DNA of 64,000 nucleotides from Sporosalibacterium faouarense (GTDB taxonomy: Bacteria > Bacillota > Clostridia > Tissierellales > VENL01). Every line of letters starts with the position of its first letter. The stretch's first letter is position 1. The stretch is from the NCBI RefSeq assembly GCF_016765695.1, contig NZ_JAETGO010000069.1, positions 62,001 to 126,000 on the forward strand. Direction: 5' to 3'. The notes below the pieces were generated by a model, which had not been told where the DNA came from, ran no database searches, and saw only the letters and a list, made by a program, of their open reading frames with translations. Below, piece after piece: positions 7,596 through 23,140 of the stretch. The position numbers and the translations under genes were made by a program.

Positions 7596-8861
7596 CTAGT
7601 TTTCCAATCCTTTATTATACATCTCTTGATATTCAGAATCAGGTACAAAGATTCCTCCTGTTAACCAACAAATATGGGTGTCATTATTATTTGCATTAAC
7701 CAGTGTCGGCCCTAATACACTAGATGCAGCAGAAGGCTCAATTTTAATATTCTCGACGTCTTTTACTAGTCTAAGTAGCTTGAAAAGCTCATCATCTTCA
7801 ATTGTATAAATGCCATCTAAAAAGTTAGAAGCCATTTCAGAAACTAGCTTTGAAGGAGAGCCTACAGCTAAACCATCGGCTTCCGTTATATTATCTATAC
7901 CATAGTTATTAATCTTTAAATCACTATACTTTTCAGTAACAAGTCCTAAAAGCATACATGGGGCATGGGTTGGTTCAACGAAGTAGCAATGAACATTATC
8001 ATCAAAGATATGCTTTAAACCGAAGGCTATACCTCCAGGAGCCCCACCTACACCACAGGGAAGGTAAACGTATAACTGGTGATTTTCATCAACGGAGATA
8101 CTCTTTTCTTCAAGCTGTTTCTTCAATCTTAGAGCTGCTACACTATAGCCTAGAAATAAATCCTTAGAATTTTCGTCATCTATGAAATAAGCGTAATCAT
8201 TTCCTTCACATTGCTTTCTTCCTTCTTCAACTGCCTTAGAATAGTCATCCTCATATTCTATTACATTGGCACCTTTACTTCTGAGAATTTCTTTTTTCCA
8301 CTCCTTAGCATCACTGGACATATGTACATCTACTTTAAAACCTAATGCAGAGGATATTATACCAATACTTAAACCAAGATTGCCAGTAGAACCAACAGCA
8401 ATTTTATAGTTAGAGAATAGCTCTTTGAATTCCTTATTTGCCAGAATAGAATAATCATCATTTACTGATAATATATCCTTTTCAAGAGCAATATCTTCAG
8501 CATGCTTTAAAACTTCATATATTCCACCTCTAGCCTTAATTGAGCCTGCAATCTTTAAATGACTATCACATTTTAGATAGAGCTTTCCCTTAATCTCAGT
8601 TGTATATCTGCTTTCAAGATTATGTTTTAGGCTATTTGTCTCAGCTAATGGAGATTCTATAATTCCATTTTTTGTTTCGGGGAAGAGTCTTTCAATTAAG
8701 GGAGCAAATCGCTCTAATCTGTTTGAAGCATCAACGATATCCTCATATGACATAGGTAAGGAATTAACTATGTCCTTAAAGCTTTCCTTATTTTTGTTCT
8801 TCCATAAAACAGGATTAAGCTTTTTAATTTCTTTGATAACATCCATATTGTAATTATCCAC
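7596..8861 (-). CDS. dsdA: D-serine dehydratase (D-serine ammonia-lyase)
   Basis: PLP enzyme that converts D-serine to pyruvate and ammonia. The Schiff-base lysine lies in HLKIAGSIKARGG (Lys109 counted from the chosen start), the PLP-phosphate loop is GSTGNLGLS, and YLPCGVGGAPGGIAFGLK is typical of DsdA. At 421 aa it is slightly shorter than the usual 440. The start is GTG at 8861, 10 nt from AAGGAGG; a TTG at 8870 lies only 1 nt from the ribosome site and is unlikely. It appears monocistronic, with no DsdC-type regulator or D-serine permease beside it, so detoxification of, or growth on, D-serine from the medium are both possible. Confidence 0.92.
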   Translation of the reverse strand: MDNYNMDVIKEIKKLNPVLWKNKNKESFKDIVNSLPMSYEDIVDASNRLERFAPLIERLFPETKNGIIESPLAETNSLKHNLESRYTTEIKGKLYLKCDSHLKIAGSIKARGGIYEVLKHAEDIALEKDILSVNDDYSILANKEFKELFSNYKIAVGSTGNLGLSIGIISSALGFKVDVHMSSDAKEWKKEILRSKGANVIEYEDDYSKAVEEGRKQCEGNDYAYFIDDENSKDLFLGYSVAALRLKKQLEEKSISVDENHQLYVYLPCGVGGAPGGIAFGLKHIFDDNVHCYFVEPTHAPCMLLGLVTEKYSDLKINNYGIDNITEADGLAVGSPSKLVSEMASNFLDGIYTIEDDELFKLLRLVKDVENIKIEPSAASSVLGPTLVNANNNDTHICWLTGGIFVPDSEYQEMYNKGLEN

Positions 8862-8923
8862 TATTTCCAAACCTCCTTAATATAATTATAATCACATTTT
8901 ATCATAAAGATAGCTATTATGAA

Positions 8924-11948: not shown

Positions 11949-13580
11949 ATGCCTATTACTGTGAAGAATGTACTACAATTAAATAGCTTCAAAACAGTTA
12001 AGCTAGTGGCTGGATTTAAAGGTATATCTAGAAAAGTAAATAATGCATCTCTTATGGAGGTTCCTGATATTTTTCCATACGTAGAGGCTAATAATTTGCT
12101 AATTACTACACTGTATCCTATTTATGACAATAAGGACGCTATTCAGGAGTTAATACCTAAGCTTGCTTCCCAAGGGCTTGCTGGTATATGCATAAAACCT
12201 GGAAGATATATTGAAGAAATACCAGAAATAATGATTCAGCAAGCTAATAATCTACAATTTCCAATATTGCAGCTTCCACAGGATGCTAATTTATCAGATT
12301 TAGTGAACGATATTCTGGAATTATCATTGGATAAGCATATAAGTACCTTAGAGTTTAGAAATTATGTTCATGATAAACTTATGGACTTATTTTTAAAAGG
12401 AGCTGATATTAAAACACTGGTGGAGAGTTTATCAAATATTGTTGAATTTCCAGTCTTTCTTCTTGACGGTGAATTAAATATCATTTGCACTTCAAAGGAT
12501 ATTGATGTTGAAAATATTTCAGTGATAGCCAATAAAAATATATCTAATATTCATGCAGATGATATTAAAGTTGTGATAAATGGCAAGGAATGTACAAAGG
12601 ATTCGTGTATAATATATTCAATTAATGCAGGAAATACTTGTTTTGGATATATAATTTTATTAAAAGGTCAGGCAAATGGTGAAAATTTAATTGTTGCTGT
12701 CCAACAGGCAGCATTACTAATTGCATCAGTATTTCATAAGAATAGTGCAGTATTAGAGAAAGAAAAGAATTTTCAGGATGCTTTTATTAGGGATATTTTG
12801 CAAGGTAAAGTGAAATCACAAATTGATGCTATAAAGAAAGCCAAGGTTTTCGGGTGGAATCTAGAATTTCCCCAGGTAATTATCGTAATAAAAGTGTTGA
12901 ATAGTGATGAGACTAATAAAAAGACAGTTTATGAGAATATCATTAGCTCTAGTCTTGTTGAAAAGATATTTTTTAAGAGATTATCCATATTCACAGGAAA
13001 TATAAAAACAGTTTATTTAGATGATTCTTTAGTTGTATTTATTAATGCTATATTTATAAATAATATAAAACAATACTGTATTGATATTGGAAACGTGATA
13101 GTGAATGAGCTAAAAAAAGAAACTGATGTAGGTATAGGAATTTCAAAATTGATTGAAGATATAGATAGATTTCCAATAGCATATAGTGAGGCTCATAATA
13201 GTTTAAGTGTGGGCGCTATATTAAATAGAGGTTCTTTCGTCAGCCACTATGATGAATACAGGATTTTTAATATTTTAAAGGAAATAAAAGACGAAGACGT
13301 ATTGAGAGAATACATTGAAAGTAAACTAGGAGAAATAATTAAATATGATAATAAAAATGACCTAAATTTAATGAATACCTTAAGAGTAATTATAGAAGTG
13401 AATTTTAATATGAAAAAGGCAGCAAAAAAGCTATTTATACATTATAATACATTAAGATATAGGGTTGAAAAGCTTAAAGAGCTTGGAATACAAATTGAAA
13501 ATGGATTTGAAATGGGAGAAATTGTTTTAGCATATAATGGGTATTTATGGTTAAAGGCTAAAGGAAAGCTTGATATGTAA
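11949..13580 (+). CDS. PucR-family regulator of the cyclic-ureide operon
   Basis: 543 aa. The N-terminal PucR ligand-sensing domain covers about 1-125 (ITVKNVLQLNSFKTVKLVAG, ASLMEVPDIFPYV, LASQGLAGICIKPGRY). A GAF/CdaR-like middle follows, and the C-terminal HTH_30 reads NFNMKKAAKKLFIHYNTLRYRVEKL. The family regulates purine, allantoin and related ureide catabolism. The gene is immediately upstream of the ring-opening amidohydrolase operon on the same strand, separated by its own strong terminator. It is therefore transcribed alone and is the obvious activator of the operon. Confidence 0.93.
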   Translation: MPITVKNVLQLNSFKTVKLVAGFKGISRKVNNASLMEVPDIFPYVEANNLLITTLYPIYDNKDAIQELIPKLASQGLAGICIKPGRYIEEIPEIMIQQANNLQFPILQLPQDANLSDLVNDILELSLDKHISTLEFRNYVHDKLMDLFLKGADIKTLVESLSNIVEFPVFLLDGELNIICTSKDIDVENISVIANKNISNIHADDIKVVINGKECTKDSCIIYSINAGNTCFGYIILLKGQANGENLIVAVQQAALLIASVFHKNSAVLEKEKNFQDAFIRDILQGKVKSQIDAIKKAKVFGWNLEFPQVIIVIKVLNSDETNKKTVYENIISSSLVEKIFFKRLSIFTGNIKTVYLDDSLVVFINAIFINNIKQYCIDIGNVIVNELKKETDVGIGISKLIEDIDRFPIAYSEAHNSLSVGAILNRGSFVSHYDEYRIFNILKEIKDEDVLREYIESKLGEIIKYDNKNDLNLMNTLRVIIEVNFNMKKAAKKLFIHYNTLRYRVEKLKELGIQIENGFEMGEIVLAYNGYLWLKAKGKLDM

Positions 13581-13605
13581 TTAGTTTACAAGGAATAGCG
13601 TTTTC

Positions 13606-13652
13606 AAAACACGATTAGTTGTCACTCAGTGACAACTAATCGTGTTTTTTTT
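13606..13652 (+). terminator. Strong terminator after the pucR-like gene
   Basis: The 20-bp perfect arms start AAAACACGATTAGTTGTCAC and are separated by TCA, followed by nine T. It insulates the regulator from the operon. Confidence 0.95.
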
Positions 13653-13980
13653 TGTCAGAGTATTATGATGATTATCAAATATTTACATGGTATCATTTAA
13701 TTAACATATGGAATATTAAAGTAAATTAACAATTTTAAAAAGGATAATGATTATAAGCTTTATTAAGAAGTTACCAATGATTATTATTGTAAAAACACTC
13801 AATTGAGATTATCTTAAGGAAATTTCCTAATATTAAAGTGAAGAAGAAGTATTGAAAGTACCAATGGTAAACAAACTATTTTTGGTGATTAGAGTATGAT
13901 GAAAAAATAGTGAGTTTGAACATTGTACAAATCAGTTAACAATCTAAGTGATCACTGAACCATTAAAGGAGGTTATATTT
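13653..13980 (+). promoter_or_regulatory. Operon leader with two palindromes (candidate PucR operators)
   Basis: About 330 bases without a gene. They contain two perfect palindromes, CTCAATTGAG at 13798-13807 and AGGAAATTTCCT at 13817-13828, 9 bp apart. They lie upstream of the amidohydrolase, whose ribosome site AAAGGAGG is at 13966-13973. PucR-type binding here is a guess based on position. Confidence 0.4.
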
Positions 13981-15093
13981 ATGATGGATGTAAATGTATA
14001 CAGGATAGCTATGTCATCGCCTGATGATATAGAAGGACTGAAGGAATTAATTAATAAGGGAGATATAAATCCAGAGGAAATAGTAGCTATACTGGGTAAG
14101 ACTGAAGGTAATGGGTGTGTAAACGATTTCACAAGAGGCTTTTCAACACTAGCTTTTAAAACCTTTTTATCCAATAAACTAGGAAAGTCTGTGGCTGAAA
14201 TTGGAGAACGTATTGCTTTTGTTATGTCTGGTGGCACAGAAGGAGTAATGTCACCACATGCTACAATTTTTACTAAAAAAGAAATTGATCAAGAAAATAA
14301 TAATAGTAATGATGAAAAAGCTCTAGCTGTAAGTGTTGGATTTACTAGAGATTTTCTACCTGAGGAAATAGGTACTATGACCATGGTAAAAGAGGTTGAA
14401 AGAGTAGTTTTAGAGCTTATGGATTCTGCAGCTATAGAGTCTAAGGAAGATGTACATTTTGTACAAATAAAATGTCCTTTATTAACTTCAGATAGAATTT
14501 TAGATGCCCAGGCTAGAGGCAAAAGGGTGATTGTAAATGATACCTATAAATCTATGGGATATTCAAGAGGAGCATCGGCATTAGGAGTGGCAGTTGCACT
14601 AAATGAAATAGATGAAGAAAAGTTAAAAGATGAATCAATTCTTAAAGATTGGTCTTTATTTTCAGAGGTAGCCTCCACATCAGCTGGAGTAGAGCTTCTA
14701 AATTGTGAAATAATTCTTATGGGAAATTCAAACAAATCTAATAGTAGATTTAAAATAGGACATGACGTTATGAAGGACTCAATCGATCTGGAAGCAGTAA
14801 TTAACTCCATGAAAGATGCAGGACTAGAGTTTAATAGTCTTCCTACCGAAGAGGATAAAAGGAAAATTGTCAATGTACTAGCTAAGGCAGAAGCATCACC
14901 AGATGGATATGTGAGAAATAGAAGAACCACAATGTTAACTGACTCTGATATAAATCATACTCGTCATGCAAGGGCAGTGGTAAATGGAGTTATTTCTGCA
15001 ATAGTAGGTGACCCTATGGTTTATGTATCGGGAGGAGCAGAGCATCAAGGACCATCAGGTGGTGGACCGATTGCTGTAATAGTGGAAAGATAA
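13981..15093 (+). CDS. Ring-opening amidohydrolase (cyanurate hydrolase/barbiturase family)
   Basis: 370 aa, the AtzD/TrzD/barbiturase family, which opens a cyclic ureide ring by hydrolysis. The protein is a threefold internal repeat with one Lys and one Ser per unit. The visible ones are Lys40 (LGKTEGNG), Ser83 ([12 protein letters not shown]), Lys164 (QIKCPLL), Ser232/Ser234 (ASTSAGVEL), Lys302 ([10 protein letters not shown]) and Ser350 ([15 protein letters not shown]). The catalytic set is therefore complete. Cyanuric acid gives carboxybiuret and barbiturate gives ureidomalonate; I cannot tell which is used. The start is ATG 13981 (8 nt after AAAGGAGG); a GTG at 13948 lies upstream of that ribosome site. 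It is the first gene of the transport/carbamoyltransferase/carbamate kinase run. Confidence 0.92.
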
Positions 15094-15169
15094 TAATATT
15101 ACTAAACCCACTTAATTAGAGCTATCTGGAGGGTACAGTAAAAAGAGGATAAAACTAAGGGGGAAAATC

Positions 15170-16429
15170 ATGTTAATAATAAATATTTTACCATTAGTGT
15201 TGATAGTAGTTCTTTTGTTTAAAAGAAAGCATATGCTATTTGCTGGAGTGTGCGGTGGAGTGTTAGCAATGATAATTGGAAAAATGACAGTTGGTGATGC
15301 AACCGGAATATTTTTAGGTGGAGTATCGAACATGTTAGGGATTACAGTCCCCATCCTATATGCAGCAACAGCAGCAATGGTTGCCAAGGGAGGTAGTATT
15401 CAATCTCTTGTTGAGCTTTCAAAAAGAGGATTAAAGGGAAAAATAAGTATTTTAGCTGGAATTATGGTATTAATTCAAGCCTTTGCAACTTATATGGCTG
15501 GTATGGGAGCCGGAAACACAATGGTAACTGCTCCTCTAATTGCAATAGCAGTTGGAGCTGTTCCAGAGGTAATTGCTGGCATGGCAATTGCTACAGCTGT
15601 TGGATTTACTACGTCACCTGCTTCTACAGAAACAGCTTTAGCAGCTGAAAGCGCTGGTAGAGAAATAGCAGCTCATGCTGCTGCTATGAGACCATTTACA
15701 ATTCTCTTCTTCCTACTTGCAGCTGGACTTGCAATGTATGGTGTATATAAAAGAGGTGGATTGACAATTAAGGAAACGGTAGCTACCAAAGATGGATCAA
15801 TAGAGGAAAAGGAAGATACCACTACCTTATGGAAGAAGGCCATACCTTCACTTGCATTACTTATAATGGTAGTTGGGGGGAGTAAAATCAACTCTCTAAT
15901 AGGAATATCAATTTTTTCACCTGCTACTACAATAATATTTACTAGTGTATTAACTGTAATATTCACACCACTAAATATCAATAAAACCTCGGAAGCATTA
16001 GTAGATGGTTCGAGATTTATACTAACTACCTTATTTTCAGTAGGAATATTCTTAGGATTTATAAATATGATAGCAGAATTAGGTACTTTTGAGCAGATTG
16101 CAGCAATAGCAGGAAATGCGCCTCAAATGATAGTGGTTCCTGTGGCAATGATTATAGCCTTCTTAATTGCTATTCCAGCAGGTGCATTCTGTGCAGGAGT
16201 TCTTACTCTAGTTTTACCGACTCTTGCAGCTTTAGGATTACCATCAGAAGCAATGGGTTTCGTGGCCATAGCTGCAGGACTAGGAACACAAGTTAGTCCA
16301 GTTCAAATAAATGTGGCAGCATTAGCTGAAGGATTTGATATGGATATTATGGATGTAATTAAAGAAAATATTAAGTTTATAATATCTGCTATGGTAATTC
16401 TAGTTATACTTGCAGTAATAATTGTTTAA
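15170..16429 (+). CDS. Ion-transporter-superfamily permease, substrate unknown
   Basis: 419 aa, about 11-12 membrane segments, with a hydrophilic loop at about 200-222. The small-residue-rich re-entrant-like segments (AGMGAGNTMVTAPLIAIAVG, GFTTSPASTETALAAESAG and IAAGLGTQVSPVQINVAAL) resemble GntP/DcuC/CitMHS-type carriers of organic anions. It has a good ribosome site (AAGGGGGAAAATC). Placed directly after the ring-opening hydrolase, it could import the cyclic ureide anion or exchange it for the acid end product. The second permease of the operon is of the nucleobase class, so the anion/product role is more attractive for this one. Confidence 0.8.
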   Translation: MLIINILPLVLIVVLLFKRKHMLFAGVCGGVLAMIIGKMTVGDATGIFLGGVSNMLGITVPILYAATAAMVAKGGSIQSLVELSKRGLKGKISILAGIMVLIQAFATYMAGMGAGNTMVTAPLIAIAVGAVPEVIAGMAIATAVGFTTSPASTETALAAESAGREIAAHAAAMRPFTILFFLLAAGLAMYGVYKRGGLTIKETVATKDGSIEEKEDTTTLWKKAIPSLALLIMVVGGSKINSLIGISIFSPATTIIFTSVLTVIFTPLNINKTSEALVDGSRFILTTLFSVGIFLGFINMIAELGTFEQIAAIAGNAPQMIVVPVAMIIAFLIAIPAGAFCAGVLTLVLPTLAALGLPSEAMGFVAIAAGLGTQVSPVQINVAALAEGFDMDIMDVIKENIKFIISAMVILVILAVIIV

Positions 16430-16471
16430 AATAATGAATGCTTGGAATCAATTGGTTTAAAATGAGTATTT

Positions 16472-16529
16472 AAATATAAAGGGATAAATGATGTTAAGGA
16501 CAATCATTCTTTCCCTTTATATTTTATAT
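16472..16529 (+). terminator. Hairpin between the two permease genes
   Basis: The arms AATATAAAGGGA and TCCCTTTATATT, with an inner AATGAT/ATCATT extension, are followed by TTATATAAATTT. It is probably a partial terminator that lowers expression of the downstream genes, or an RNA-stabilising hairpin. The downstream genes have no other obvious promoter. Confidence 0.6.
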
Positions 16530-16562
16530 AAATTTACTGGAAGTAATTTTTGAGGTGATATT

Positions 16563-17870
16563 ATGACAAACAAATCAACAGAAATAGATATTATCTATGG
16601 AATTGATGATAAGCCTAAGTTAGCTAATGGAGTACCATTAGCTTTTCAACATATTCTTGCAATGTTTTCAGGAAATATAACGGTACCTCTATTAGTAACT
16701 GGATTACTAGATTTAAGTTCTAAAGAAAGCACTTTCTTAATACAATGTGCACTATTTATGGCTGGAGTAGCTACACTAATTCAAGTCCTTAAATTTAAAA
16801 ACATAGGCTCAGGATTGCCAATAGTCATGGGAACGAGCAATGCTTTTTTACCTGTAGCGCTAGCAATATCTGGAGAATTTGGTATTGGTGCTGTTCTAGG
16901 TGCCGGTTTTATAGGAGGTCTGTTCGAGATTTTAATAGGTAAGAACCTGAAATTACTGAAAAAGATATTTACACCATTAGTTTCTGGCATAGTAATATTA
17001 ACTATCGGAATAACTCTAATTCCAGTAGGAATTAGACATGCAGCCGGAGGAAATGGAGACATAGGATCTCCTCAAAACTTGTTGATAGCTTTAATTGTAC
17101 TAACAACTATAATTATATTTAATCAATTTGGAAATAGATTTTTAAGAACATCATCAATATTAATGGGATTAATTATTGGATATATCATTTCTATTATTTT
17201 AGGCATTATTGATTTATCTCCACTAATGGAGGCAGGATGGTTGTCATTTCCTATACCATTTCAGTATAAGTGGAGCTTTGAACCTTCAGCTATTATAGCC
17301 ATGCTTTTTATGTTTATCGCAACGTCTATAGAAACAATAGGAGATATTTCTGCAATTACAAGTAGTGCAGAGAATAGAACACCAACACATGAGGAATTAA
17401 GTGGTGGAGTAATAGCCGATGGACTTGCCAGTTGTATTTCAGCATTTTTTAATGCCTTTCCCAATACTTCATATACACAAAATATTGGAGTTGTTAATTT
17501 GACAGGAGTATTCAGTAAATATGTGGTTAGAATTGGAGCCATTATATTGATAATATTATCGCTGCTACCTAAATTTGCAGCCATAATAGCTATTATGCCT
17601 GAACCAGTATTAGGCGGGGCAGCCATTGCAATGTTTACAATGGTAGGAGTTTCAGGGATATCTTTGCTAAGAAAGGTTAAATTCAATAATAGGAATATGC
17701 TTATCATGGCTATATCTTTAGGAATTGGAGTGGGGTTAAATCTAGTTCCAGAAGCTACTCAATATTTATCAGAAAACATTCAATTATTTTTAAGGTCTGG
17801 AGTAGTACCCGCTGCTATAGTAGCTATTATTTTAAATATAGTGTTGCCTGAAAAAAATATTAATGAATAG
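16563..17870 (+). CDS. NCS2-family nucleobase (xanthine/uracil-type) permease
   Basis: 435 aa with 12-14 membrane segments. The NCS2 signature is present as SYTQNIGVVNLTGVFSKYVVRIGA, preceded by ATSIETIGDISAITS (the substrate-binding acidic residue in TM8). It imports a purine, pyrimidine or similar ring by proton symport. Barbiturate, urate, xanthine and cyanurate are all shape-compatible. Its position between the ring opener and the carbamoyltransferase genes supports import of the cyclic ureide. Ribosome site GAGGTG. Confidence 0.92.
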   Translation: MTNKSTEIDIIYGIDDKPKLANGVPLAFQHILAMFSGNITVPLLVTGLLDLSSKESTFLIQCALFMAGVATLIQVLKFKNIGSGLPIVMGTSNAFLPVALAISGEFGIGAVLGAGFIGGLFEILIGKNLKLLKKIFTPLVSGIVILTIGITLIPVGIRHAAGGNGDIGSPQNLLIALIVLTTIIIFNQFGNRFLRTSSILMGLIIGYIISIILGIIDLSPLMEAGWLSFPIPFQYKWSFEPSAIIAMLFMFIATSIETIGDISAITSSAENRTPTHEELSGGVIADGLASCISAFFNAFPNTSYTQNIGVVNLTGVFSKYVVRIGAIILIILSLLPKFAAIIAIMPEPVLGGAAIAMFTMVGVSGISLLRKVKFNNRNMLIMAISLGIGVGLNLVPEATQYLSENIQLFLRSGVVPAAIVAIILNIVLPEKNINE

Positions 17871-17920
17871 TATAGAGGAAAATGGTATCTATTAAATAGT
17901 AATCTAGGAGAGGATCAGCT

Positions 17921-18859
17921 ATGTGTACTAAAAATCAAAATAAAATATTTTTTAATTCCCTTTCTTGTGATGAAGGTTTTCTAGATCATTTTCAGGATAA
18001 GAAAGATTATGAGTCTATTGGAAAAATCCACACAATATTTAATAAAGTAATTAATATTGTATATGGTAATAGGATTTATTCAATAGCAGCGTTAGCGGTT
18101 GATAACTCACCATATACTCTAAGAATTGATAACAAGGGATGTAGCTTTAAGGAATTAAATCTTATAGTGGGAAATTCTGCTATAAAAATTAGGAATAGTT
18201 TAATATTAGGAAATAAAATAGTTATTAAATTATATAATACAAAATTATGGAAGCCTTCTAATCGTAAGATAAATATAAAAAACGTAAAAGTAGCTGAAAG
18301 AAATATAATTAAGTTTAATGAAAAAATAGTAGATAAAGGAATTAATGGAGGATGCAAATATTTTTATGAGAGTAGATATCTAGAGAAATATAAGTATAAG
18401 CCAAGTTTAGTAGAAAGAGAGTTATCCAATAGAATTAAGGTTTTTACAGATGAAGTGTATAAAGAAAAAGTCAATATATCTCATATTAATTCTTTGATAG
18501 GGCTGGGAATGGGATTAACTCCTTCAGGGGATGATTTCCTATCAGGATTTTTATCGACAATAAGCATTATAAACTCAAAAAAAACTAATAAAATTTCACA
18601 AAGAATTATACGAGATCTTAATCTTGAAGATATATCTACAACCTATGTAAGTAGGCAGATGCTGATGAATACTTTTGAAGGAAGATATAAGGAAAGAATT
18701 TTAAAACTTATATATTCTTTTATAAATGAAAATGAGTCTGAGTTTATTAAATCTTTAGATAGAGTATTAGCTATTGGTTCATCTTCAGGTACAGATTTAG
18801 CTATAGGAATAGCTACAGCATTTATTTTAGCAATAGATTTTCACAAAATGGAGGGATAA
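17921..18859 (+). CDS. DUF2877 protein, AllH-like carbamoyltransferase component
   Basis: 312 aa. The DUF2877 signature GLGMGLTPSGDDFLSGFL lies at about 190-207. In E. coli the homologue YlbF (AllH) is one of three proteins needed for oxamate carbamoyltransferase, which splits oxalurate with phosphate into oxamate and carbamoyl phosphate. It is followed 2 nt later by the FdrA/AllF-like gene, then the YlbE/AllG-like gene and carbamate kinase, in tight spacing. The N-terminal half is weakly conserved. Confidence 0.88.
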   Translation: MCTKNQNKIFFNSLSCDEGFLDHFQDKKDYESIGKIHTIFNKVINIVYGNRIYSIAALAVDNSPYTLRIDNKGCSFKELNLIVGNSAIKIRNSLILGNKIVIKLYNTKLWKPSNRKINIKNVKVAERNIIKFNEKIVDKGINGGCKYFYESRYLEKYKYKPSLVERELSNRIKVFTDEVYKEKVNISHINSLIGLGMGLTPSGDDFLSGFLSTISIINSKKTNKISQRIIRDLNLEDISTTYVSRQMLMNTFEGRYKERILKLIYSFINENESEFIKSLDRVLAIGSSSGTDLAIGIATAFILAIDFHKMEG

Positions 18860-18861
18860 AA

Positions 18862-20406
18862 ATGATATCTAATACTATAGTAAGAAAAAATGCATACTAT
18901 GATTCTGTTACATTGATGTCATTATCAAGTAAAATACTTGAGCTAGATGGGATAGAAGAAGCAGTGATATCAATGGGTACAGAAATGAATAAAGAACTAT
19001 TGGAAAATGTAGAACTTTCAAACGAAGAGACAAGAGGAGCCAGTAATAATGATCTCATAATAGCAATAAAAGCTATAAACAATGAGGTATATGAAGAAGC
19101 TTTAAAGATTATTGATGAATCTTTAAATTCAAAAAAGAAAGGAAAAGAAAAAAAAGATAGAAATCCAAAAACAATAGTATCTGCCCTTAAAGAAATGAAT
19201 GATGGGAATTTAGCAGTAATTTCAGTGCCAGGACAATATGCTGCAAGAGAAGCTAAAATAGCTTTAGAAAATGGGCTTAATGTAATGTTATTTAGTGATA
19301 ATGTTGATTTAAAAGACGAAAAAGCTTTAAAGGAGCTTGCTAAAGATAAAGGATTATTAGTAATGGGTCCTGACTGTGGAACAGCATCAATAAATAACAC
19401 AGGACTTTGCTTTGCTAATAAAGTAGAAAAAGGGAATATCGGGTTAGTTGCAGCATCAGGAACAGGTTTACAAGAGGTAATGGTACAAATTGATAGATTA
19501 GGTGGGGGCATATCTCAAGCCATTGGAACTGGTGGGAGAGACCTTAAGGAAGAAATTGGTGGAATAATGATGTTAGAAGGACTTAAGGCATTAGATAGAG
19601 ATGAGAATACTGATGTAATAGTTTTAATATCAAAACCACCAGCAAAGAAAGTCGAGAAAAAGATACTAGAGCAAGTTAAAAATATAAAAAAACAGGTAGT
19701 TATATGCTTTATCGAAGGAGATTCGGAAAAGGTAGAGAAATCTAATGCAATTTTTGCTGATAACCTTTATAATGCAGCTAAGAAAGCTGTTGAGGCTTCA
19801 GGATTAGAAATCAAATTAGAGTTAAGAAAGAATGATAATAATGAAATAAATAGGAAAATAACAGAAGCTAAGAGTAAACTAAATGATAACCAAAAATATT
19901 TAAGGGGGCTCTTTGGTGGTGGAACTCTCTGTGCTGAAGCCCTATATATTCTAAGGGATAAACTTACAGGTATACAGAGTAACGTTGCTAAAAGGGAAGA
20001 AGAGAAACTAAAAGATATTAATAATTATAATGGGAATGTTCTCCTTGATCTGGGTGAAGATGAATTTACCGTTGGCAAACCTCATCCAATGATTGAGCCA
20101 ACATTGAGGTTAGATAAAATAAAAGAAACAGCAAAAGATGAATCAGTAGGTGTTGTTTTAATGGATTTTGAATTAGGATATGGCTCCCATGAAGATCCTG
20201 TAGGAGTTACTATTTCAACAATAGAGGAAGCGCAACAAATAGCTAAGAAAGATGGAAGAAATATCATATTTGTAGTATATGTTTGTGGGACAAGCAAGGA
20301 TAAACAGGATTATAAAAAGCAAATACAAATGCTAGAAAATGGAGACATAATAATTGCGGAAAGTAATGTAGAAGCAGCCAATATAGTAGCAAATATTTTA
20401 TCATAG
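18862..20406 (+). CDS. fdrA: FdrA (AllF-like) carbamoyltransferase component
   Basis: 514 aa. It resembles the succinyl-CoA-synthetase alpha/acyl-CoA synthetase fold: VISVPGQYAAREAKIALENG, MGPDCGTASIN, GLVAASGTGLQEVMVQIDRL and GQAIGTGG-like phosphate loops. A charged linker (KKKGKEKKDRNPKT) lies at about 92-106. In E. coli FdrA (AllF) works with AllG and AllH as oxamate carbamoyltransferase; CoA need not be used. It starts 2 nt after the DUF2877 stop, with ribosome site GGAGGG. It is slightly shorter than E. coli FdrA (555 aa). Confidence 0.92.
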   Translation: MISNTIVRKNAYYDSVTLMSLSSKILELDGIEEAVISMGTEMNKELLENVELSNEETRGASNNDLIIAIKAINNEVYEEALKIIDESLNSKKKGKEKKDRNPKTIVSALKEMNDGNLAVISVPGQYAAREAKIALENGLNVMLFSDNVDLKDEKALKELAKDKGLLVMGPDCGTASINNTGLCFANKVEKGNIGLVAASGTGLQEVMVQIDRLGGGISQAIGTGGRDLKEEIGGIMMLEGLKALDRDENTDVIVLISKPPAKKVEKKILEQVKNIKKQVVICFIEGDSEKVEKSNAIFADNLYNAAKKAVEASGLEIKLELRKNDNNEINRKITEAKSKLNDNQKYLRGLFGGGTLCAEALYILRDKLTGIQSNVAKREEEKLKDINNYNGNVLLDLGEDEFTVGKPHPMIEPTLRLDKIKETAKDESVGVVLMDFELGYGSHEDPVGVTISTIEEAQQIAKKDGRNIIFVVYVCGTSKDKQDYKKQIQMLENGDIIIAESNVEAANIVANILS

Positions 20407-20420
20407 GAGGGAGTCACGAA

Positions 20421-21857
20421 ATGAATGGAATAGATAAACTATTTTCAGAGAAGCTTAAGGTTATTAATATAGGAACATCAAAATTCAAGGATGATATTGA
20501 ATTACAGAATGAAGAAGTAATACAAGTTGATTGGAATCCTCCTGCTAGAGGAAATATAGAATTAATTAAAGCATTAGATGATATTTCGAATAATAATAAA
20601 ATTAATGATGCTAATGAAAAGGCGATAAAAATTATAAAGGAATCCCATCCAGTATTGATAGATGTAGATATTGCTATCAATGTAATTCCTGGAATGAAAA
20701 AAAACTTGATACTACATGCAGGTCCTCCAATTAAATGGGAGAGAATGTGTGGTCCAATGCAGGGAGCAATAGTCGGTGCATTGATATATGAAGGATTAGC
20801 TAAGAATGAAGAAGAAGCAAGAGAATTGGCAGCATCAGGAAAAATAGAATTTGCTCCATGCCATGAGCATAATTCAGTTGGACCAATGGCTGGTGTAGTT
20901 TCACCATCTATGCCTGTTCACGTAGTATATAATAAAACATATGGTAACTATGGGTATTGTACAATTAATGAAGGACTAGGTAAGGTATTAAGATATGGAG
21001 CGTTTAGTGATGAAGTAATAAATAGATTGAAATGGATAGAAAAGAAGCTTGCACCTACTTTAAAGGCTGCCTTAGCTTTAATTGAAGATGGAATTGATTT
21101 AAAATCAATTATAGCTCAAGCTGTTCACATGGGTGACGAATGTCATAATAGAAATAAGGCAGCTACAAGTCTGTTTTTTAGGGAGATAGCACCTTATTTA
21201 ATTGCGTCCAACACTGATAATGAAACATTGGTTGAAGTTATAAAATTTATGAAAGGAAATGACCATTATTTCTTAAATCTCTCTATGCCATCATGTAAGG
21301 TTTCGCTAGACGCTGCTCAGGGAATAGATAATTCTACAATTGTAACCACTATGGCAAGAAATGGTGTTGATTTTGGAATTAGAGTAAGTGGATTAGGTGA
21401 AAAACAGTGGTTTACTGCTCCAGCAAATATGGTAAAAGGACTTCTATTTCCTGGATACAAAGAAGATGATGCAAGCCCAGATATAGGAGATAGCACTATA
21501 ACAGAAACAATGGGTATAGGCGGATTTGTAATGGGTGGTGCTCCTGCTATCGTACAATTTGTTGGTGGAACAGTTGTAGATGCTATTAATTACAGTGAGC
21601 AAATGTATGAAATCACTGATGGTGAAAATACGAACTACTCAATCCCTACACTAGATTTTCGTGGTTCAGCTTTAGGTATAAATATTGCTAAGGTAGTAGA
21701 AACAGGAATATTACCAATAATAAATACAGGAATGGCTCATAAAGTCGCAGGAGTAGGACAAATAGGTGCAGGTATTGTACATCCACCGATAGAATGCTTT
21801 GAAAAAGCAATACTAGAATTTACTAATAATGGCAAAAGAGGTGGAAATGATGAGTAG
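20421..21857 (+). CDS. DUF1116 protein, AllG/YlbE-like carbamoyltransferase component
   Basis: 478 aa. DUF1116 features are HAGPPIKWERMCGPMQGAIVGAL, PCHEHNSVGPMAGVVSPSMPV, HMGDECHNRNKA and GVDFGIRVSGLG. The E. coli homologue YlbE (AllG) is the third component of oxamate carbamoyltransferase. The stop codon overlaps the start of carbamate kinase by 8 nt, which shows translational coupling of the enzyme that makes carbamoyl phosphate to the one that uses it. Confidence 0.92.
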   Translation: MNGIDKLFSEKLKVINIGTSKFKDDIELQNEEVIQVDWNPPARGNIELIKALDDISNNNKINDANEKAIKIIKESHPVLIDVDIAINVIPGMKKNLILHAGPPIKWERMCGPMQGAIVGALIYEGLAKNEEEARELAASGKIEFAPCHEHNSVGPMAGVVSPSMPVHVVYNKTYGNYGYCTINEGLGKVLRYGAFSDEVINRLKWIEKKLAPTLKAALALIEDGIDLKSIIAQAVHMGDECHNRNKAATSLFFREIAPYLIASNTDNETLVEVIKFMKGNDHYFLNLSMPSCKVSLDAAQGIDNSTIVTTMARNGVDFGIRVSGLGEKQWFTAPANMVKGLLFPGYKEDDASPDIGDSTITETMGIGGFVMGGAPAIVQFVGGTVVDAINYSEQMYEITDGENTNYSIPTLDFRGSALGINIAKVVETGILPIINTGMAHKVAGVGQIGAGIVHPPIECFEKAILEFTNNGKRGGNDE

Positions 21858-22785
21858 AATTATGGTGGCTTTAGGTGGAAATGCCCTTGGTAAAACACCA
21901 CAGGAACAACTAAAACTAGTTAAAGAAACAGCTAAATCAATAGTTAATCTAATAGAGCAAGGTCATGAAGTAATTATTGCCCACGGTAATGGTCCACAAG
22001 TCGGCATGATTAATTTAGCTATGGAGATAGCATCAAGTACAAATGAAACTGTTTCACAAATGCCTTTTCCAGAATGTGGAGCTATGAGTCAAGGATATAT
22101 TGGATATCATATGCAAAATGCAATTAGAGAAGAATTGACTAAAAGAAGTATAGACAAATCGGTAGCTACAATCATTACTCAAGTAATAGTGGATGAGAAC
22201 GATGAAGCTTTTAGAAAGCCTTCAAAGCCAATAGGAAGCTTCTACTCTAAAGAAGAAGCAGAGAAGCTAATAAATGAAAAGGGTTATGAAATGGTTGAGG
22301 ACTCGGGTAGAGGATATAGAAGAGTTGTTCCTTCTCCAAAGCCTGTAGATATTGTAGAAAAGGACATAGTAAAAGTACTTGTAGAAAAGGGGCAAGTGGT
22401 TATAACTGTTGGGGGTGGAGGAATTCCAGTAGTTAAGCAAGGTAGTTCTCTTCAAGGAGTGCCAGCAGTTATAGATAAGGACTTTGCAAGTGAAAAAATG
22501 GCTGAAATAGTTGATGCAGATTATTTATTTATATTAACTGCAGTTGATAGAGTAGCTATTAATTTTGGAAAACCTAATCAAATTGAATTAAAAAGTATTT
22601 CAGTAGAAGAAGCGAGAGAATACATTGATGAAAATCAATTTGCACCAGGAAGTATGCTTCCAAAAGTAATAGCTGCAATTAAATTTGTGGAATCGAAACA
22701 GGGTAGAAAGGCTATAATAGCTTCTCTTGAAAAAGCTAGGCAGGCATTGCTAGGAGAAAGTGGTACTACTATTTATAAAAAATGA
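21850..22785 (+). CDS. arcC: Carbamate kinase
   Basis: 311 aa. It converts carbamoyl phosphate and ADP to carbamate and ATP in fermentation. The amino-acid-kinase motifs are MVALGGNALG, AHGNGPQVGM, VITVGGGGIPV, IDKDFASEKMA and APGSMLPKVIAAIKFVE. I chose the ATG at 21850 (MSRIMVALGG), which matches the family N-terminus and lies 5-8 nt after AGAGGTGG; earlier in-frame ATGs are at 21847 and 21829. It is the last gene of the cyclic-ureide operon and equals AllK in function. No arginine deiminase genes are nearby, so the carbamoyl phosphate comes from the AllFGH-type proteins. Confidence 0.95.
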   Translation: MSRIMVALGGNALGKTPQEQLKLVKETAKSIVNLIEQGHEVIIAHGNGPQVGMINLAMEIASSTNETVSQMPFPECGAMSQGYIGYHMQNAIREELTKRSIDKSVATIITQVIVDENDEAFRKPSKPIGSFYSKEEAEKLINEKGYEMVEDSGRGYRRVVPSPKPVDIVEKDIVKVLVEKGQVVITVGGGGIPVVKQGSSLQGVPAVIDKDFASEKMAEIVDADYLFILTAVDRVAINFGKPNQIELKSISVEEAREYIDENQFAPGSMLPKVIAAIKFVESKQGRKAIIASLEKARQALLGESGTTIYKK

Positions 22786-22795
22786 ATATTATTCC

Positions 22796-22824
22796 TTGAC
22801 AATATACAAAATAATAAATATAAT
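22796..22824 (+). promoter_or_regulatory. Sigma-A promoter of the thrS T-box transcript
   Basis: Consensus TTGACA (22796-22801), 17-bp spacer, TATAAT (22819-22824), about 20 nt ahead of the T-box stem I. Confidence 0.85.
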
Positions 22825-23110: not shown

Positions 23111-23140
23111 TTTAAATAATAAATAAGAGGAGGAGTTGTG

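Follow-up and report, generated by a model that had tools for sequence, protein, structure and literature searches.

A 64,000-nucleotide stretch of the genome of Sporosalibacterium faouarense (contig NZ_JAETGO010000069.1, positions 62,001 to 126,000 of the forward strand; hereafter the window) carries an operon in which a predicted cyanuric acid hydrolase (CAH) gene, atzD, precedes genes for two carriers, for the three subunits of an oxamic transcarbamylase-type enzyme (AllH, FdrA/AllF and AllG) and for a carbamate kinase. We regard it as likely that this operon specifies a cyanuric acid pathway that is phosphorolytic and conserves energy. To our knowledge, cyanuric acid breakdown has so far been described as hydrolysis without energy gain. 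Pseudomonas sp. ADP reportedly uses the hydrolytic pathway encoded by atzDGEHF. This pathway and that of Rhizobium, where atzD occurs with isochorismatases, share the AtzD first step with the window, whereas their downstream reactions are hydrolytic and yield no ATP, unlike those proposed here.

In the proposed route, cyanurate would be taken up by a permease and its ring opened hydrolytically by AtzD to carboxybiuret, a chemistry that others have established for relatives of the enzyme. We infer that AllF-AllG-AllH would then transfer the terminal carbamoyl group of carboxybiuret to inorganic phosphate (Pi), running in the direction of carbamoyl phosphate and leaving allophanate, and that carbamate kinase would convert carbamoyl phosphate to ATP, NH3 and CO2, with an expected yield of one ATP per ring. 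Allophanate would decarboxylate to urea as the presumed waste product, an outcome that is expected because neither an allophanate hydrolase nor a urease was found in the genome. In some relatives, a triuret hydrolase-like enzyme would feed or replace the ring-opening step, with the same product. Cyanuric acid is a very stable compound; it is a large-scale product and stabilises pool chlorine (PMC6557486). If the route is real, the capture of one carbamoyl group as carbamoyl phosphate makes this compound an energy source, which would explain why anaerobes such as Moorella retain a cyanuric acid hydrolase. AllFGH, a newly found enzyme, would also gain a further substrate, and the presence of allFGHK beside triuret genes in nitrifiers would be seen in a new light.

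The operon and its predicted cyanuric acid hydrolase

The genome (4.12 Mb, 99 contigs, 97% complete) holds eight intact open reading frames (ORFs) between positions 11949 and 22785 of the window, all on the + strand, in the order pucR, atzD, DcuC-like transporter, NCS2 permease, allH, fdrA/allF, allG and carbamate kinase. Their number, strand and place are as an earlier note on this DNA had described, and their names are backed by Pfam and NCBIfam profile matches; DUF2877 and DUF1116 are now named AllH and AllG in Pfam. The features are:

11949..13580, +, pucR-type regulator with PucR, GGDEF-like and HTH_30 domains; a separate transcription unit
13606..13648, +, strong intrinsic terminator (20-pair stem, T-run) between pucR and atzD
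13981..15093, +, atzD, predicted cyanuric acid hydrolase type; the ORF opens at GTG 13948
15170..16429, +, DcuC-like transporter, weak profile match; candidate cyanurate carrier
16563..17870, +, NCS2 permease (xanthine/uracil family), by Pfam/NCBIfam
17921..18859, +, allH (DUF2877), carbamoyltransferase subunit, by Pfam; AlphaFold model with mean predicted local distance difference test (pLDDT) score of 86.6
18862..20406, +, fdrA/allF, carbamoyltransferase subunit whose domains resemble succinyl-CoA synthetase; 36% identity with E. coli FdrA
20421..21857, +, allG (DUF1116), carbamoyltransferase subunit, by Pfam; 48% identical to E. coli AllG
21829..22785, +, carbamate kinase, TIGR00746 match; the ORF opens within allG

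The earlier note had counted pucR within the gene row. It does adjoin atzD on the same strand, but the terminator behind it, with its 20-pair stem and T-run, makes it a neighbour rather than the first gene of the operon. From atzD to the carbamate kinase gene, the intergenic gaps are 76, 133, 50, 2 and 14 bases, plus one overlap. For atzD, the ATG at 13981, located 8 bases past the ribosome-binding site AAAGGAGG, is a more likely start than the GTG at 13948, while the true start of the carbamate kinase, as read from the sequence, is probably 21847 or 21850. A weak terminator-like site (5 pairs) lies at 17811, inside the NCS2 gene, and a promoter scan was uninformative (57 sites against 61 expected). 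The DcuC-like permease is matched weakly (28 bits against a cut-off of 100), and no Pfam match was obtained for it at E 0.001.

All three subunits of oxamic transcarbamylase are present, homologous to E. coli AllF (36% identity), AllG (48%) and AllH (26% over 133 residues), and the genome holds one AllG. The carbamate kinase scores 396.9 bits on the arcC model TIGR00746 (cut-off 358.25). The chemistry of E. coli AllFGH with oxamate and carbamoyl phosphate is established, in the form oxalurate + Pi <-> oxamate + carbamoyl phosphate (PMC11326118). The E. coli operon allFGHK, for oxamic transcarbamylase and a catabolic carbamate kinase, likewise joins three subunits and a carbamate kinase (PMC11326118), and the same chemistry on an N-carbamoyl amide is presumed for the window. 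In E. coli, allFGHK adjoins allB, allC, allD and allE and uses oxalurate, whereas in the window a cyanuric acid hydrolase gene precedes and no AllD was found in the genome. With the AllH model, a confidently predicted structure, Foldseek returned no PDB match within its threshold of E 0.001 and VIA-align none that reached a Z of 5; these searches gave no clue to the role of this subunit, and we do not claim that its fold is new.

For the ring opener, the earlier note had named cyanurate and barbiturate as alternative possible substrates. AtzD scores 555.5 bits on the NCBIfam cyanuric acid amidohydrolase equivalog NF052395, 195 above the cut-off of 360, and its closest solved relative is the CAH of Moorella thermoacetica (6bum; E 1e-143, 65% identical). 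Its E-values against the barbiturase 5hwe (2e-91) and the CAH 4nq3 (8e-93) are nearly equal; overall similarity alone is thus not decisive, and diagnostic columns were therefore aligned. At the 24 columns that separate four solved CAHs from two barbiturase-type proteins (5hwe and its best match, a 74% identical Nonomuraea protein), AtzD agrees with the CAHs at 20 and with the barbiturase type at three. The three Ser-Lys dyads, Glu230 and three active-site arginines are all conserved (K40, S79, K156, S226, K285, S333, E230, R52, R188 and R314 in 4nq3 numbering). The barbiturase subgroup is described as having Gln in place of the CAH Arg188 (PMC4051656); 5hwe has Asn in this column of its PDB entry, which disagrees with that statement, and AtzD has Arg. 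Profile and residues alike thus assign the ring opener to the cyanuric acid hydrolases rather than to the barbiturases.

Cyanurate is a proven substrate of the Moorella CAH and barbiturate an inhibitor (PMC6557486); for characterised CAHs, too, barbiturate is given as an inhibitor and not a substrate (PMC4051656). Close homologues of this enzyme sit in AllFGH loci: in L042, L043 and L044, AtzD shares 97, 97 and 95% sequence identity, respectively, with the re-engineered Moorella CAH, has AllG, FdrA and AllH beside it and is followed at a distance of a few more genes by carbamate kinase, which ties this type of operon to proven cyanurate chemistry. The main text of the Moorella CAH paper (PMC6557486) does not contain the terms 'operon', 'gene cluster', 'genome context' or 'carbamate'. 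The 195-bit margin, the 20 of 24 columns and the Moorella-type loci thus support the cyanurate branch of the earlier note, while its barbiturate/ureidomalonate branch was set aside on the residue and profile-model evidence.

Recurrence of the gene set and near-exclusion with allophanate hydrolase

Among 398 genomes of the window's phylum, 13 carry AtzD (an AtzD fragment in G446 included), 60 carry AllG and 11 carry both (Fisher p 2.4e-8, a statistic that ignores relatedness); the AtzD-AllFGH linkage exceeds chance. The earlier note had suggested seeking the gene order in other genomes, and the linkage does recur: 27 of 34 AtzD loci, the majority covering up to about 10 kb either side, have AllG or FdrA close by, always on AtzD's strand. 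This count scores three loci shortened by contig ends (L007, L020 and L022) as misses; together with L013, L019, L048 and L052, these are the seven without AllG or FdrA in reach. L008 and L009 were dropped before counting, as they were taken to be the same records as L038 and L041. BLAST matches of more than 80 bits to window or E. coli proteins, which give lower bounds, place carbamate kinase in at least 15 of the 34 loci, the DcuC-like carrier in at least 23, the NCS2 permease in at least 18, an AtzC-like/cytosine-deaminase amidohydrolase in at least 14 and an isochorismatase in at least seven. By comparison with the 23 of 34 AtzD loci, the DcuC-like carrier is found in 0 of 42 AllG loci without AtzD, a confinement that makes it a candidate for cyanurate uptake. 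L119 and L121 are short contigs; the latter, from the genome of AtzD locus L047, was labelled 'other' in the AllG tree (see below), relabelled for the FdrA tree, and is still among the 42.

On the Bacillota side, linked loci occur in Tissierella, [Clostridium] ultunense, a Halanaerobiales metagenome-assembled genome (MAG), Amphibacillus, Proteiniclasticum and MAGs of Solobacterium. Other lineages are represented by a Chloroflexi MAG, a Pelolinea MAG, Melaminivora, a Rokubacterium MAG and an archaeal MAG. A Klebsiella oxytoca plasmid carries the same gene set, with a CAH 62% identical to that of the window and the carrier gene preceding atzD. Among 72,556 plasmid records, 50 match this cassette, 47 over at least 80% of its length and 47 at 99% identity or more; the hosts are Citrobacter, Klebsiella, Enterobacter, Leclercia, Raoultella, Escherichia, Aeromonas, Shewanella and Serratia. 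Such near-identical cassettes suggest recent spread among enterobacteria, and a tie between this spread and isocyanurate disinfectants is a guess. At L123 (10713-19642; CP026716.1), the cassette order is DcuC-like-atzD-permease-allH-fdrA-allG-carbamate kinase, with 49 further plasmid records; some of the cassette plasmids come from showers, a drain or patients. A literature search with incomplete subscription coverage found no description joining CAH to AllFGH, and nothing on the plasmid cassette; the one paper that touches on both enzyme sets, a study of nitrifiers, reports no atzD in them (PMC12625717).

No match of any strength to the allophanate hydrolase AtzF was obtained in the window genome, which makes an AtzE-type enzyme unlikely there too. 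No urease was found in it either, nor a biuret or triuret hydrolase: none of its three isochorismatases is close to BiuH or TrtA, and the best has 37% identity over residues 118-208 of the BiuH-type query. Relatives of BiuH/TrtA at 50% identity or more occur in four of 16 AtzD genomes searched, none of the four being that of the window. The oxalurate-forming ureidoglycolate dehydrogenase AllD has 0 matches across the window genome and none over cut-off among 29 AtzD genomes, 11 of which have weaker matches. The absence of allantoinase that the note had described holds within the window, but elsewhere in the genome (contig C70, L158, 1429-3525) an allantoinase/hydantoinase-like ORF reaches 337 bits against a cut-off of 358. 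This ORF adjoins an isochorismatase of ~200 aa, and the two may belong to a second ureide pathway of this bacterium.

Only one of the 29 AtzD genomes has AtzF over cut-off, namely G316 from the window's phylum, which has a BiuH-type isochorismatase and no AllG. AllG is present in the remaining 28 (the match in G424 being weak), of which 27 have sub-cut-off matches only in the allophanate hydrolase search; these are taken here for other amidases. Urease passes the Pfam cut-off in eight of the 29, six of them through short matches (24 to 31 bits, no more than 62 positions) that we attribute to other amidohydrolases, and two (G424 and G505) at full strength. G505, an Alphaproteobacteria MAG, has a strong AllG and no AtzF. 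As an outside control, 398 genomes of its phylum (Pseudomonadota) were searched: 14 have AtzD, 12 of these with AtzF over cut-off and two with AllG, one of them weak. No AllFGH was seen in the surroundings of the 13 new AtzD genes of this control set, and BiuH/TrtA-type genes and AtzF accompany three of these 13.

The combined 42 AtzD genomes consist of matches to the window's AtzD, relatives from its order and two even draws; G446, the genomes of L017, L020, L021 and L022, and the plasmids were omitted. AtzF and AllG are both present in one, AtzF alone in 12, AllG alone in 28 and neither in one (Fisher p 1.5e-8, again with relatedness ignored). With the weak AllG matches of G424 and G700 left out, the counts become 0, 13, 27 and 2. 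The rule is kept in two cross-lineage cases, G316 and G505. An AtzD genome thus mostly keeps either the hydrolytic tail or AllFGH, one of the two. The earlier proposal that AllFGH and carbamate kinase would process the product of the ring opener is supported by the recurrent linkage (27 of 34) and this near-exclusion; the latter, together with the hydrolytic enzymes not found in the genome, also argues for a route distinct from the hydrolytic ones.

Carboxybiuret and competing explanations

Carboxybiuret shares the H2N-CO-NH-CO- group and a terminal carboxylate with oxalurate, and can be regarded as oxalurate with NH inserted ahead of the carboxylate. It is the product of both AtzD and the triuret hydrolase TrtA (PMC7948467), and TrtA-like enzymes were found in seven loci. 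In trees of AllG and FdrA, from which ORFs below 350 and 400 residues, respectively, were dropped, the TrtA-like loci L101 and L108 group with the Moorella-type AtzD loci, with Shimodaira-Hasegawa-like approximate likelihood ratio test (SH-aLRT) support of 99 (AllG) and 100 (FdrA). A Peptoclostridium acidaminophilum replicon has an operon with a TrtA-like isochorismatase and no AtzD within the 19 kb seen; this locus pairs with the AtzD-bearing L024 (SH-aLRT 98 for AllG, 96 for FdrA). Two AllFG branches in which AtzD is exchanged for a TrtA-like enzyme with a common product point to carboxybiuret. Neither the AtzD-linked AllG nor the AtzD-linked FdrA proteins form one clade; they are scattered over their trees, with 11 changes each, at least 6 of them forced. 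The diagnostic residues of TrtA are F35, N41, E160, Y187 and I205 (PMC7948467). The isochorismatase of the archaeal locus L016 has the full set, and the six other TrtA-like enzymes have F35, N41 and I205, but H160 and F187. The isochorismatases of L040, L047 and L048 carry the BiuH residue set.

A comparable arrangement exists in comammox, where allFGHK lies beside trtA, biuH and atzF and trtB is missing (PMC12625717). These clusters and those of ammonia-oxidising archaea share with the window the placement of allFGHK by carboxybiuret- or allophanate-making genes, and upstream purine genes are reported as absent; the authors read allFGHK as oxalurate degradation, and no atzD is described in those genomes (PMC12625717). 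The likeness suggests that comammox allFGHK may act on carboxybiuret rather than oxalurate. Read broadly, AllFGH would be a general acylurea phosphorylase in a widespread, so far unrecognised pathway by which anaerobes ferment cyanuric acid (and triuret) via carboxybiuret to carbamoyl phosphate and ATP; this pathway would replace the hydrolytic AtzE/BiuH-AtzF route and would recently have reached enterobacterial plasmids, perhaps under selection by isocyanurate disinfectants. We put the chances of this wider reading at about even.

Several points weigh against the carboxybiuret route. Six of the seven TrtA-like enzymes have His, not Glu, at 160. The BiuH-signature enzymes of the AtzD-AllFGH loci L040 and L047 suit allophanate or biuret too, and BiuH-type enzymes together with the plasmid atzF indicate that these compounds also matter in some hosts. 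The scatter of AtzD-linked AllG and FdrA implies either that a dedicated specificity arose repeatedly or that the enzyme is permissive. The K. oxytoca plasmid carries atzF 5 kb from the cassette and so breaks strict exclusion, the AllG matches in G424 and G700 are weak (115 and 108 bits), and the Fisher tests ignore the relatedness of the genomes. With a genome that is 97% complete, the absences are strong hints, not proof. Nitrogen bound in urea would be lost. Lastly, the AtzDs of L049-L051 are atypical, with the CAH letter at 9 of 24 columns and Lys at 188, and these loci may use another ring.

The next best candidate after carboxybiuret is biuret, which would be formed by spontaneous or assisted decarboxylation and phosphorolysed in the same route to carbamoyl phosphate and urea. 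Carboxybiuret does decay to biuret in vitro, its half-life being about 20 min (PMC7948467), and either scheme ends in urea in a genome where no urease or AtzF was found. We nevertheless consider biuret rather unlikely as the substrate, as it is without the carboxylate common to oxalurate and carboxybiuret, and the AtzF near the plasmid cassette fits allophanate as the product, not urea. It is improbable that AllFGH serves purine breakdown as an ordinary oxalurate enzyme and simply happens to adjoin atzD. PucR, the xanthine-type permease and the allantoinase-like ORF elsewhere in the genome would suit such a role, as would the other loci in which AllFGH adjoins other genes; however, AllD is unmatched in the genome and nowhere over cut-off among 29 AtzD genomes, the genome has a single AllG, and AtzD is linked to AllFGH in distantly related lineages too, as well as in the plasmid cassette.

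Very improbable, in our view, is that the pathway serves triuret/biuret-type compounds or other cyclic ureides in nature, with cyanurate as only one substrate. The TrtA-like enzymes in seven loci are in its favour, and the deaminase-like amidohydrolase that accompanies AtzD in 14 of the 34 could point to a precursor with amino substituents, but the window operon has neither enzyme. We give the least credence to a barbiturate route, in which AtzD would form ureidomalonate and AllFGH would yield malonamate and carbamoyl phosphate. The AtzD family includes barbiturases, barbiturate and malonate-like acids could be cargo for NCS2 and DcuC-like carriers, and 5hwe is no further than 4nq3 from the window enzyme by E-value. 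Against this stand the CAH type of the enzyme by profile model and diagnostic columns, the inhibition of characterised CAHs by barbiturate, and the Moorella-type CAH in the same kind of locus. The phosphorolytic cyanuric acid route via carboxybiuret is the reading that we prefer.

Neighbouring genes and other loci

Directly behind the carbamate kinase gene, positions 22796-22824 of the window hold a 12-of-12 sigma-70-like promoter match, ahead of a gene at 23138 that reads as threonyl-tRNA synthetase from its translation. A few genes upstream of the operon, at 7596-8870 on the - strand, is a D-serine ammonia-lyase gene (TIGR02035, 579 bits; cut-off 368).

A cytosine-deaminase/AtzC-like amidohydrolase gene, not present in the window, is found at L006 (11140-12336) and in 13 other AtzD loci; its product may convert ammelide to cyanurate, or may have some other amino-triazine or a pyrimidine as its substrate. 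The loci L049, L050 and L051 have two tandem AllG genes together with their atypical AtzD and a deaminase-like gene. Ten neighbours of AllFGH or AtzD in L015, L110, L111, L112 and L118 included no further carboxybiuret maker. In L111 (5650-11041), FdrA-AllG lies beside a PfkB kinase and an Indigoidine_A-pyrophosphatase fusion on the opposite strand, in a stretch with no AtzD. Ankyrin-TPR proteins are encoded near FdrA-AllG in two genomes (L112, 11027-12289; L118, 5011-6372), and E. coli has a similar ankyrin gene, yahD, close to its yahFG paralogues.

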